Notes under the pieces: generated by a model
Seen by the model: the letters and a program-made list of their open reading frames with translations, nothing else
Told to the model about the DNA's origin: nothing
The model's database searches: none
Translations under genes and position numbers: made by a program
Shown here: positions 10,496-33,381 of the stretch, piece after piece
Layout: every line of letters begins with the position of its first letter
Numbering within the stretch: position 1 is the first letter of the stretch
Source: Candidatus Bathyarchaeia archaeon
Lineage (GTDB): Archaea > Thermoproteota > Bathyarchaeia > 40CM-2-53-6 > DTGE01
NCBI GenBank assembly: GCA_038852285.1
Contig: JAWCKG010000003.1
Location: 62,001 to 126,000 of the forward strand
Direction: 5' to 3'
DNA length: 64,000 nucleotides

Positions 10496-11504
10496 CTCTC
10501 AGCTTCCCTACCTTACGGCGATAGTATCCTAAGGGGTGAGTAATTTTAAGACAGGTTTCATCAGGGTTCCTACATAATCCATGGGTCTTTAACGTTTTAC
10601 AAGCCGGAGGGGCGTACTTTCTTCTGCTACCCCTCACACCCATAATGTGCTCTATCTGGTATCTGGCTTTCTCCTCATCGAAGTCTGGTAAAGGCTTGAA
10701 TAGTCCAAGCAGATCCTCTAGTTTTAACCCCATTTTCACGAGAAAGGTTGTTAAGGTGAAACGCTCTATGTGGGATATGTTCCGGCCAGCGGTAACCGCG
10801 TCGTATAAGCTTTTGACGCAGGGGGGAATCATGGAAAGCGTCAAGCGTCCCGGTGCAGGTGTTTCAGATAGAGGTTTTAAAGTCTCTTCGACTCGTTTAC
10901 TGAGCTCCTTCACCCTCTCCTCTAGGCTTTTAGTTAAAACCGGGCTTAAGGCGGCGATCTTCCTATGAATAGTTGAAGCGATTTCCTCTTGCATGAGCCT
11001 GGCAAAATCCACTTTACCAAGGTATACGTAGCCTCTGATAACGGGTCTGTTCACCAGCTTCCAATGCGATTCTTTAATTTTCGAGGAAGCCTTCAAATAA
11101 TCTGGAAACGATAGCAATAACTCCTCCTCTTTAAGGTTTGAGGTTTGCGCATCCCATTCAAAAGCAAGGGAGTACTGCTTTAATTTTTCAGTGGGCTCAA
11201 GCCTTAGGCGTTCATAAGCCCTTTTAGCCTCTTTAACGGCGAATCTTCGGTTTAATAGGTCGTTTCTCATCCAACTCAGCATCATTAGGGCTACTGGAAA
11301 GGAGAGGAGCTCCACTCTGTCGTCAACGTATTTCTCGTCGATGGACTGGGGGGCTAATGCCTCTAATATCCTTTCCTCAGCCCTTTCCAGAACCTTCTCG
11401 TATAGAGGGGAGTCCAGCTCATCGATCTTTACTCCCAGCTCCCGCACGTGATCTGCGGCTTCGGGTAGGAAAGGGTATTTGGCGAGCTCGGAAATCGATA
11501 TCAT
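10488..11504 (-). CDS. priL: DNA primase large subunit PriL
   Basis: Regulatory primase subunit with a 4Fe-4S cluster. The C-terminal half has the four expected cysteines: IPPCVKSLYDAV, then PPACKTLKTHGLC, and ETCLKITHPLGYY. The N-terminal half is helical (FLPEAADHVRELG, ALMMLSWMRNDLL). The 338 residues fit the family. The gene overlaps priS by eight bases and begins five bases after the PCNA stop, so PCNA, PriL, PriS and GINS appear to be one replication operon. Confidence 0.95.
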   Translation of the reverse strand: MISISELAKYPFLPEAADHVRELGVKIDELDSPLYEKVLERAEERILEALAPQSIDEKYVDDRVELLSFPVALMMLSWMRNDLLNRRFAVKEAKRAYERLRLEPTEKLKQYSLAFEWDAQTSNLKEEELLLSFPDYLKASSKIKESHWKLVNRPVIRGYVYLGKVDFARLMQEEIASTIHRKIAALSPVLTKSLEERVKELSKRVEETLKPLSETPAPGRLTLSMIPPCVKSLYDAVTAGRNISHIERFTLTTFLVKMGLKLEDLLGLFKPLPDFDEEKARYQIEHIMGVRGSRRKYAPPACKTLKTHGLCRNPDETCLKITHPLGYYRRKVGKLRGG

Positions 11505-11508
11505 AGCG

Positions 11509-12264
11509 CTATTCGGCTTCTATTCTCGGGGCCAAATAATATGAGAGGCAGCCGTTTTCAGCTAAGGGGAACTCAAGCTTTAAGGGCATGTTGGTTGAGA
11601 ATTGGATTGTAGAAATCTCCGACGTCCCGGATCCAGCCTTCACCATCTCCAGGAGATAGTTTAGGTTGAAGGTGGCTTTTGAAGGCTCCTTGACTACGAG
11701 GTCGATTAACGCCTCGCTTCCCCTTTCTATCTCAAACCTGCCACTGCTTAAACTGGTGGCGGCGCTGACTATGAATCGATCCTCCTTTGTCTCCAAGCTT
11801 ACGTTGTCACTAACCTCCTGAGTGTCTTCGATAACCTCTCTTAATGTTTCTGAGGTGAGCTTAACCAAGGACTTGAACTCCAGTCTTGGGGATGGGGCTT
11901 CCTCCTCAGAGACCTCTAAGGTTGGAATCGTGTAGGCTTTCTTGATAGCCCCCAACACCGTCATGTGAACCTTTCTGGACTCGGGGTCGTATGTTAGCTC
12001 TAAGATTTCTTCACTTTTAGCCCTCTTCAACAACTTGATCATCCCGCTGAGGCTTATCCTCACCTTCACCTGTCCATCTGAAACATATTCCTTAAATGCC
12101 TCCCTGGGAAGCTTAAAGTCAACCATCGCTACATGGGAGGGGTCCATAGACCTTAACGTCAATCCTTCGGGAAGGAGGTTGAATGTAGCTTCATCCACCA
12201 ATGTGGAAATCGCCGTCAGCAGGCTTTTCCACATTCTCGCATCGGAAAACACGATTTTAAACAT
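11509..12264 (-). CDS. pcn: DNA polymerase sliding clamp PCNA
   Basis: Ring-forming processivity clamp for replication and repair. Family hallmarks are FKIVFSDARMWKSLLTAIS at the start, LRSMDPSHVAMVDF in the first domain, and the second-domain strand pattern to the end. The ATG at 12264 gives MFKIVF as in relatives; it has a GGGGAT tract eight bases upstream. An ATG four codons earlier is also in frame. A TATA-like box lies at 12321-12334. It heads the priL-priS-gins group. Confidence 0.96.
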   Translation of the reverse strand: MFKIVFSDARMWKSLLTAISTLVDEATFNLLPEGLTLRSMDPSHVAMVDFKLPREAFKEYVSDGQVKVRISLSGMIKLLKRAKSEEILELTYDPESRKVHMTVLGAIKKAYTIPTLEVSEEEAPSPRLEFKSLVKLTSETLREVIEDTQEVSDNVSLETKEDRFIVSAATSLSSGRFEIERGSEALIDLVVKEPSKATFNLNYLLEMVKAGSGTSEISTIQFSTNMPLKLEFPLAENGCLSYYLAPRIEAE

Positions 12265-30340: not shown

Positions 30341-30811
30341 ATGTCAGCATACAAGTATTTATCTAAGGCATGGGCCAAGCCTCAAGCCGAGATGCTTGGT
30401 GTCTCGGTTAAAGAATGGATGAAGGAAACCCTCATTAAATGGCGGAAACAGCCCTCCGTAATCAGGGTTATGAAACCCACGAGAATCGACAAAGCCAGAA
30501 GGTTAGGTTATAAAGCCAAGCCAGGATTCATAGTCGTCAGAGTGAGAGTTAGGAAAGGGGGTGCGAGGAAGCCTAGGCCACGTTCAGGTAGAAGGCCCAA
30601 GGCCTTGGGCGTAACAAAGTACACGAGGGAGAAAAGTTTAAGGAAAATCGCCCAAGAGAGAGCTACCCGCAAATACGTGAACCTCATACCCTTGAACACC
30701 TATTTTATATGGGAAGACGGTAAGCACGCCTGGTTCGAGGTGTTAATGGTCGATCCAAACCACCCCTCAATAAAATCGGATAAAAGTCAACCTGTACCAG
30801 AAGCCCTTTAA
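30341..30811 (+). CDS. rpl15e: ribosomal protein L15e (eL15), short form
   Basis: Large-subunit protein. The start SAYKYLSKAWAKPQ, the strand QPSVIRVMKPTRIDKARRLGYKAK (two pieces), the basic loop RKGGARKPRPRSGRRPKALG, and WFEVLMVDPNHPSIKSD are standard. It ends at 156 residues just after the DPNHPSIK block, whereas many euryarchaeal and crenarchaeal homologs run to about 190-215 with a further basic tail. Short forms are known in some archaea such as Thaumarchaeota, so this is likely lineage-specific rather than a truncation. Confidence 0.94.
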   Translation: MSAYKYLSKAWAKPQAEMLGVSVKEWMKETLIKWRKQPSVIRVMKPTRIDKARRLGYKAKPGFIVVRVRVRKGGARKPRPRSGRRPKALGVTKYTREKSLRKIAQERATRKYVNLIPLNTYFIWEDGKHAWFEVLMVDPNHPSIKSDKSQPVPEAL

Positions 30812-31124: not shown

Positions 31125-31334
31125 TTATGGCGGCTTTATATGTTTGAGTTTCTCATCCTCGCTGGCTTGTTTCCCACCTAGTCCCCAGTTTTCCTTCATA
31201 ACCTCGTGAATTACAACTTCAACGCCTTCCGCAGGGACTCCTATTTCGGTGAAAAGATTCGTTATGCCTGCTATCACCTTTTTCTTAGCTTCGTTTGAAA
31301 ACCCCGTCCAAACATAAATATGTACAATCGGCAT
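31125..31334 (-). CDS. 4-oxalocrotonate tautomerase-like protein
   Basis: A 69-residue member of the tautomerase superfamily. After Met, the N-terminal proline is present (MPIVHIYVWTGFSNEAKKK), as required for catalysis in 4-oxalocrotonate tautomerase-type enzymes. The rest has the expected VVIHEVMKENWGLGGKQAS pattern. Substrate unknown. It stands alone between two intergenic stretches. Confidence 0.85.
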   Translation of the reverse strand: MPIVHIYVWTGFSNEAKKKVIAGITNLFTEIGVPAEGVEVVIHEVMKENWGLGGKQASEDEKLKHIKPP

Positions 31335-31607: not shown

Positions 31608-32042
31608 TTATTCGATCGTAATGTATTCTTCGGGCAGTTGTACGATGCCGACGTTGTTTAAATAAGTGAATACTCCGAACTCGTCTAGGACGGAGTCTAT
31701 AACTATGGCTATGATATAAGGTGAGAACTGCTGTAGCTTAAGTTGGGTTTGCACATCCATGTCGGACATGAAGACGCCACAACCTACATGTGAGTGATAC
31801 CATCCTACGATGCTGCCTTGAATTTTCCCTATCATCATCTCTTGGGCTATTTTAGCCATGCGTCTGGCGGAGAAGATGGAGGTTGAACCGTCCGCCTCTC
31901 CCTCCCCTTCTATAGCGTCGGTTACCTTTAATTCGCCGCCTTCTAATCCCCCCAAAAGCAATCCAATTTGCTCGTAAGGCTTTTTAGTATGCGAGATTAT
32001 TTTCCCCATAGCTAATCTGCTAATGGCAACCTTGAAGAGCAT
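31608..32042 (-). CDS. JAMM/MPN+ metalloprotease, Rpn11-like
   Basis: Predicted zinc isopeptidase of the JAMM family. The full metal motif is present: HSH then seven residues, Ser, two residues, Asp (HSHVGCGVFMSDMD), with the catalytic Glu in YEQIGLLLGG. The context GWYHSHVGCG...TQ is closer to eukaryotic Rpn11 and CSN5 than to typical prokaryotic JAMM proteins, which have Pro before the Ser. The ATG at 32042 is preceded by GGAGG with a four-base gap, giving 144 residues; the frame is open 20 codons further. Rpn11 removes ubiquitin; no ubiquitin-like, E1 or E2 gene is in this window. Confidence 0.88.
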   Translation of the reverse strand: MLFKVAISRLAMGKIISHTKKPYEQIGLLLGGLEGGELKVTDAIEGEGEADGSTSIFSARRMAKIAQEMMIGKIQGSIVGWYHSHVGCGVFMSDMDVQTQLKLQQFSPYIIAIVIDSVLDEFGVFTYLNNVGIVQLPEEYITIE

Positions 32043-32172
32043 TTTTCCTCCATCCACATTCTCAACATAGCATAATAGTATTGAAAGATTTTTAACCCGC
32101 ACCTTTAAATTTACATGGAAATCCCTTTTAATCTATTCATGATTTAGGGCGAGAATCCTAGAAGGGATAAAA

Positions 32173-33381
32173 TTGGTGGACTACATTGTTGGGATTGTAG
32201 GTAAACCTAATGTAGGGAAATCCACGTTTTTCTCAGCTCTAACGATGAAAACGGTGCCCATTGCGAACTATCCTTTCACAACGATTCAACCAAACAGAGG
32301 CGTAGGATATGTAAGGGTTCCATGCGTGTGCAAAGAGTTCGGGGTTAAAGATGAACCAACGAACTCCGCTTGTATAAACGGCAACAGGTTTATCCCAGTT
32401 GAGCTAGTTGACTGCGCGGGTCTTGTTCCAGGGGCTTGGATGGGGAAGGGGCTTGGAAACATGTTTCTAGACGAGATTAGGCGCGCTAAGGTTTTAATAC
32501 ATGTAGTGGACGCTTCAGGATCCACCGATGAGGAGGGTAAGCCATGTGCGACTGGGACCCATGACCCCTCCATCGACGTGAAGTTTCTCGAAGAAGAAAT
32601 CGACAGATGGTTGATGAGCATCATTAAGAAAGACTGGAGTAAAATAGTGAAGTTAACCGAAGTTGACAAGAAACCCTTAACCGAGGTGATAGCGGAGAGA
32701 TTAAGCGGCATATCCGTGTCTAAAATTGAGGTTGCTCAGGCGTTGAGTAGCGCAGGTCTCATGGAGGCTAGGGCTTCAGAGTGGGGGGATGAACGATTAA
32801 TGGATTTTACAAGGAAGGTTAGGGCTAAGTCAAAGCCCATGCTAATCGCCGCTAACAAAGTTGACATCCCAACTGCGGAAGCATATGTTGAGAAATTAAA
32901 AGGTAGTGGGTCGCATGTGGTGCCCTGCTCTGCTGAAGCCGAACTAGCGCTAAAGAAGGGAGTTGAAAAAAACGTTTTGTCATACTTGCCGGGCGACGGA
33001 GATTTCGAGATAATAGGGGAGATAACTGACGCGCAGAGAAAGGCGTTAAATTGGATTAAAGATAACGTTCTCGGAAAATGGGGTTCTACAGGTGTGCAAC
33101 AAGCTTTGAACTTTTCCTTCCTAAACCTTCTAGGCATGAAGGTAGTTTACCCGGTTGTTGACCCAGACAAGCTTACCGATCATCGAGGAAGGGTCCTGCC
33201 TGAAGCCCATCTGGTCCCAGGAGACGCCACCGCCAAGCAGTTTGCGTATTCCATTCACACCGAGTTGGGGGAGCACTTCATATACGCGGTGGAGGCGCGT
33301 TCTAGTAAAAGGGTTGGAGAAGACTATGTGCTAAAAGACGGCGACGTCATCTCAATAGTTTCTGCTAGAAAAAGGGGTTGA
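32173..33381 (+). CDS. YchF/OLA1-type GTP-binding protein with TGS domain
   Basis: P-loop ATPase/GTPase of the OBG-HflX-like superfamily. GKPNVGKSTFFSALT (P loop), DCAGLVPGAWMGKGLG (switch II), NKVD in AANKVDIPTAE, and a C-terminal TGS domain (RGRVLPEAHLVPGDATAKQFA, DGDVISIVSA). Archaeal members are about 400 residues, as here (402). Role likely in translation or ribosome biology. Start is TTG at 32173 or GTG at 32176. It is divergent from the JAMM gene. Confidence 0.9.
   Translation: MVDYIVGIVGKPNVGKSTFFSALTMKTVPIANYPFTTIQPNRGVGYVRVPCVCKEFGVKDEPTNSACINGNRFIPVELVDCAGLVPGAWMGKGLGNMFLDEIRRAKVLIHVVDASGSTDEEGKPCATGTHDPSIDVKFLEEEIDRWLMSIIKKDWSKIVKLTEVDKKPLTEVIAERLSGISVSKIEVAQALSSAGLMEARASEWGDERLMDFTRKVRAKSKPMLIAANKVDIPTAEAYVEKLKGSGSHVVPCSAEAELALKKGVEKNVLSYLPGDGDFEIIGEITDAQRKALNWIKDNVLGKWGSTGVQQALNFSFLNLLGMKVVYPVVDPDKLTDHRGRVLPEAHLVPGDATAKQFAYSIHTELGEHFIYAVEARSSKRVGEDYVLKDGDVISIVSARKRG

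Follow-up and report, generated by a model that had tools for sequence, protein, structure and literature searches.

Known archaeal Rpn11 genes usually lie in or beside a ubiquitin (Ub) operon, although this placement is not strictly defining. In the window analyzed here, a 64,000-nucleotide stretch of contig C3 from a Candidatus Bathyarchaeia archaeon genome, an Rpn11-like JAMM metalloprotease gene is found neither within nor adjacent to such an operon, and the question is what a protease in this position could act on. Our favored answer, to which we assign a probability of roughly 0.68, is that the stand-alone JAMM is catalytically active, processing the Ub precursor and acting as the deubiquitinase of a dispersed archaeal Ub system whose other genes are located elsewhere in this genome, on contig C8.

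The gene encodes a protein of 144 aa (Table 1), and the full JAMM motif reported for this reading frame in the original prediction is intact, with E24 followed by H83-S-H85-(x7)-S93-xx-D96 in GWYHSHVGCGVFMSDMDVQTQ. These five residues are invariant in an alignment of the 15 stand-alone orthologs, and the protein combines the Glu and the HxH-x7-S-x2-D within an MPN fold, as defines the JAMM/MPN+ class. A longer ORF with a GTG start (164 aa), called mechanically, is disfavored because GGAGG precedes the ATG and the orthologs align from this same ATG. The Val that follows HSH, also remarked upon in the prediction, is indeed present but is no diagnostic marker, because the position varies among the orthologs (mostly Val, Ile or Leu, with Pro in one and His in one). 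Pfam JAB (PF01398) matches at 48 bits (cut-off 22.5), Prok-JAB scores slightly under its cut-off, and the NCBIfam desampylase model (NF041370) gives 14.7 bits (cut-off 130). The top Foldseek matches of an AF2 model (pLDDT 91) are yeast Rpn11, CSN5 and CsRpn11, the Rpn11 of Caldiarchaeum subterraneum, and a PDB sequence search returns CsRpn11 first (E 1e-15), then CSN5 and Rpn11. In both sequence and model this is a minimal domain, lacking Ins-2 as well as the C-terminal helices H4/H5. As judged from sequence and predicted fold, the protein is Rpn11/CSN5-like and not an ordinary desampylase-type JAMM.

Table 1. Features at the stand-alone JAMM locus (window coordinates)
Feature	Position	Strand	Details
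Stand-alone Rpn11-like JAMM metalloprotease gene	31608..32042	(-)	ORF, 144 aa; ATG 32042, stop 31608
Shine-Dalgarno-like GGAGG 5' of the JAMM ATG	32047..32051	(-)	sequence GGATGGAGGAAAAATG
Ribosomal protein eL15	30341..30811	(+)	identified by eye; in families f1 and f4 it adjoins JAMM
Small 4-OT-like tautomerase ORF, downstream of JAMM	31125..31334	(-)	69 aa; family by eye; neighbor
YGR210/OLA1-like GTPase, divergent neighbor of JAMM	32173..33381	(+)	PF08438, TGS

The order eL15-JAMM-GTPase is common to the window's genome and to genome G027, the eL15 side is also kept in G025 and G026, and in family f6 the stand-alone JAMM follows aRF1 and an HD-domain gene. This shared local gene order implies that the JAMM was inherited in place within subgroups. 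It is never found beside Ub genes; the nearest case is G037, where the two are 16 kb apart on one contig. The description of the gene as stand-alone is thus apt for the locus, with its housekeeping neighbors, but not for the genome, which carries a Ub/E2/E1 cluster elsewhere.

The genome, which is about 99% complete and comprises 1.7 Mb in 42 contigs, was checked by family searches, and the search for Ub, E1 and E2 proposed with the original prediction found all three, clustered on C8. The cluster reads, in order, Zn-ribbon/B-box membrane protein, membrane JAMM, Ub, E2, E1 and a second Zn-ribbon protein, the gene for which is broken by a run of N. The Ub (83 aa; PF00240, 2e-10) has the C-terminus GG-KPN, the E2 (188 aa; PF00179, 1e-18) keeps HPN and the catalytic Cys, the E1 (409 aa) is of the ThiF type, and the JAMM protein (527 aa) consists of a JAMM domain, a transmembrane helix and an ectodomain. 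What an Rpn11-like deubiquitinase requires of its genome, namely a Ub with C-terminal GG, an E1 and an E2, is therefore encoded on C8. The third and last JAMM protein found in this genome, on contig C33, is JAMM-1/desampylase-like (NF041370, 5e-32), and four ThiS/MoaD-like proteins were also detected. The prediction had spoken of a dispersed or different system; dispersed it is, with E1, E2 and Ub on C8, but the cluster carries a JAMM of its own, a sister paralog of the stand-alone copy.

Other features of the cluster were recorded alongside. The N-terminus of the E1 (L013:10142-11371) is Ub-like, with a weak PF00240 match in this genome and matches over the cut-off in G021, G026 and G033. The two Zn-ribbon/B-box-like proteins on C8 (L013:6798-7568 and 11381-11779), which border the cluster on either side in several families, are a possible E3-like or docking part; at least one of them has membrane helices. 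Convergent to the cluster in most families is a gene for a 671-aa protein (L013:11753-13768, (-)) that combines Ig-like repeats with a membrane helix and, by eye, a Zn ribbon.

Across 257 genomes of the class, a survey whose presence table depends on how complete and how free of contamination the MAGs are, close orthologs of the stand-alone JAMM were found in 15, all from one Bathyarchaeota-like order; those relatives that have names are mostly Candidatus Bathyarchaeota MAGs. Outside this order, the 257 genomes contain no comparable stand-alone JAMM, just two weak matches, both JAMM-1-like. The E2 family (UQ_con) exceeded the cut-off in 14 of the 257 genomes, all from this same order, and the same 14 have Ub and a Ub-type E1. 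Thirteen of the 14 also have the stand-alone JAMM, the exception being G033. Fisher tests on the JAMM and E2 tallies gave p 2.5e-7 for genomes within the order; at the level of genera, p was 0.089 inside the order and 1e-9 when 109 genera were compared. Because these tests ignore phylogeny, the association is suggestive and short of proof, and within the order much of the genus-level signal may be shared ancestry. When the same 13 genomes are compared for each component, mean pairwise identity is 86% for Ub, 66% for E2, 51% for E1 and 53% for the stand-alone JAMM, making Ub the most conserved member of the set.

The JAMM could instead act on a SAMP/MoaD/ThiS-type modifier or a non-Ub isopeptide, with the Ub co-occurrence due to shared ancestry only. 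For example, G027, a member of the same family that is about 98% complete and keeps the eL15/GTPase locus, has the JAMM and no Ub, E2 or Ub-type E1, and G032 (80% complete) likewise has the JAMM and no Ub, E2 or Ub-type E1. Since G027 is nearly complete and syntenic, it makes the strongest case that the JAMM has an additional or another substrate. The ThiS/MoaD-like proteins of the window's own genome and the genus-level result within the order fit this possibility as well. We nevertheless regard it as unlikely: the JAMM passes the cut-off for Pfam JAB and not for Prok-JAB, the C33 protein already provides a desampylase-like function, and the rest of the class, without Ub and E2, has no ortholog, only the two weak JAMM-1-like matches.

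The original prediction had also called for a phylogeny against Rpn11, CSN5 and prokaryotic JAMM proteins. The stand-alone JAMMs form one clade (98/96), the sister of which comprises the cluster JAMMs and coiled-coil JAMMs of family f6 (90/63). In the best tree, the stand-alone JAMMs, their cluster paralog, bacterial JAMMs and short Caldarchaeal JAMMs group together (94/92), beside and not inside the Caldiarchaeum Rpn11 and the Rpn11/CSN5 groups. JAMM-1 sequences make up a separate clade (100/99) that leaves the stand-alone JAMM outside, but AU tests reject neither joining the stand-alone clade with JAMM-1 (p 0.20) nor joining it with Caldarchaeal Rpn11 (p 0.24). On the combined evidence of sequence and modeled fold, the protein is nearer to Rpn11/CSN5 than to JAMM-1, with deep branching that is not firm. 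The predicted likeness to Rpn11/CSN5 survives in the best tree as a position outside JAMM-1, but not as a specific closeness to eukaryotic Rpn11. That the protein is an ordinary JAMM-1 of the desampylase type, with a superficial resemblance to Rpn11, seems highly improbable; its small single-domain form and the AU result would allow it, but the JAMM-1 clade excludes it, the desampylase model scores it far below the cut-off, and Rpn11/CSN5 are its nearest relatives by fold and sequence.

The tree includes the four membrane JAMMs without the catalytic Glu. Its human RPN11, BRCC36 and AMSH-LP cores match PDB chains letter for letter, a comparison that covers all but one terminal residue of BRCC36 and 18 N-terminal residues of RPN11; CSN5 was taken from the PDB-search alignment, except for its first residue and some 17 at the C-terminus. 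Some Caldarchaeal-type genomes (G465, G470 and G491) encode a second, short JAMM of about 166 aa; the one placed in the tree, L151, groups with bacterial JAMMs and not with their Rpn11. A very divergent JAMM followed by a TPR-like repeat region was seen in G033 (C84, L036), perhaps on a contaminant contig.

If our favored reading is correct, a soluble, single-domain, zinc-dependent JAMM isopeptidase would serve the Ub conjugation system of C8, an activity and a substrate that we infer. Because the Ub of this genome has residues following the GG, it should need a protease to mature. The stand-alone JAMM would trim KPN from the precursor, so that E1 could activate the Ub, and would also take Ub off conjugates. 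Work on C. subterraneum found that E1 cannot activate pro-Ub until it has been processed, and that Rpn11 by itself suffices for this trimming and for removing Ub from substrates (PMC5654768, PMC6043591); the active-site residues of CsRpn11 carry the same numbers as E24, H83, H85, S93 and D96 of the stand-alone JAMM, and CsJAMM failed to cleave CsUb (PMC6043591). In the window's genome, the C33 JAMM-1/desampylase-like protein might also trim Ub. Among the other 13 genomes with the system, Ub has no tail after GG in 7 and tails of 2-8 residues in 6. Precursor trimming as the sole role is therefore ruled out, with 7 of the 14 genomes encoding Ub that ends exactly in GG. Since the stand-alone JAMM occurs in genomes with tailed and with tailless Ub, deconjugation would be the more general function, with trimming added here.

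The cluster paralog has to be considered as a competing enzyme. In JAMM enzymes, losing the catalytic Glu generally abolishes hydrolysis. The cluster JAMMs of the window's genome (G000) and of G025 carry Arg at the position of E24, where the one of G026 has Lys and that of G022 Ala; the metal ligands and Ser are retained in these Glu-less proteins, which fall in two lineages, and the Glu itself is kept in G021, G023 and G024. It follows that in G000, G022, G025 and G026 the stand-alone protein is the sole Rpn11-type JAMM found with the full catalytic set, and to judge by these residues it may be the working enzyme where the cluster copy has degenerated. The membrane JAMM is predicted to consist of a JAMM domain, a disordered linker, one helix and then Ig-like sandwiches; in Foldseek the JAMM domain finds Rpn11/CSN5 and the ectodomain generic Ig-like matches only. 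In G030, the one f6 cluster that could be read whole (the remaining ones being on short or partial contigs), the corresponding transmembrane/ectodomain protein has no JAMM domain. Family f6 also encodes, distant from the Ub cluster, a coiled-coil plus JAMM protein with complete catalytic residues (L045-L050, about 304-336 aa).

One could still suppose that the membrane JAMM is the true deubiquitinase despite the Glu loss and that the stand-alone JAMM is a minor backup, given its linkage to the Ub-E2-E1 genes in several families, its retained metal ligands and Ser, and the three genomes with Glu. The replacement of this residue in two lineages, the G030 cluster without a JAMM domain and the integrity of every catalytic residue in all stand-alone copies speak against this, and we give it little credence. 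The Glu-less membrane paralog is instead a probable pseudoprotease or Ub receptor; alongside a catalytic stand-alone JAMM it would serve as a membrane-tethered Ub receptor or scaffold, much as Rpn8 partners Rpn11. A further and rather doubtful extension is that an ancient duplication within this order gave rise to a soluble catalytic JAMM and a membrane, often dead, JAMM that joined as an Rpn11-Rpn8-like MPN pair at the membrane.

Work on archaeal Ub systems that comprise E1, E2 and an Rpn11-like protease has centered on Caldiarchaeum and Asgard archaea, and a limited literature search, covering few subscription journals, turned up no paper describing a Ub cluster in Bathyarchaeota. The window's genome and 13 relatives carry a Ub system with a near-invariant Ub, and most of these 14 combine a dispersed, catalytically complete JAMM with a membrane-tethered cluster JAMM that is degenerate in several. 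The proteasome lid and the COP9 signalosome are both built around an active/inactive MPN pair, and the system offers a route to study how such a pair could have arisen; it also bears on whether the membrane is where Ub functions in these archaea.

Among known proteins, CsRpn11 (PDB 6FJU/6FJV/6FNN) is comparable in its JAMM core, catalytic positions, absence of Ins-2 and Ub/E1/E2 partners, and the two proteins are about 32% identical when aligned by fold. It differs in its length of about 200 aa, its helices H4/H5 and its position adjoining a Ub operon and RING E3 genes, whereas here the protein has 144 aa, the gene is dispersed, the cluster holds a degenerate second membrane JAMM, and the zf-RING_2 profile found no RING in the genome, the control being likewise unmatched. 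Eukaryotic Rpn11/PSMD14 and CSN5 share the JAMM core fold and the HSHxG...S..D context, and an active/inactive MPN pair may exist in the present system as well; the stand-alone JAMM lacks the Ins-2, N-terminal extension and C-terminal helices of eukaryotic Rpn11, which anchor that protein in the proteasome lid, and in the tree it falls outside the eukaryotic clade. The desampylases of the JAMM-1 group (HvJAMM1, PfJAMM1) are also small single-domain JAMMs but belong to a separate clade and match separate models. Fuchs et al. (2018) described as JAMM-3 prokaryotic JAMMs closer to Rpn11/CSN5, those nearer to Rpn11 being linked with Ub, E1 and E2 operons (PMC6043591). The bacterial/Bathyarchaeal branch of our tree may correspond to JAMM-3, compared by description only, with the difference that the stand-alone JAMM is unlinked from its operon. 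Bacterial Ub-like operons of type 6d combine a Ub-like protein, JAB, E1 and E2 (Iyer 2006; PMC1779556), a gene set that they and Bil share with the present system. PADLOC gave weak Bil/E1-E2 matches only for the Ub-system proteins, and in contrast to the bacterial operons, the system here has a classical E2 with HPN and Cys and a Ub that matches PF00240.
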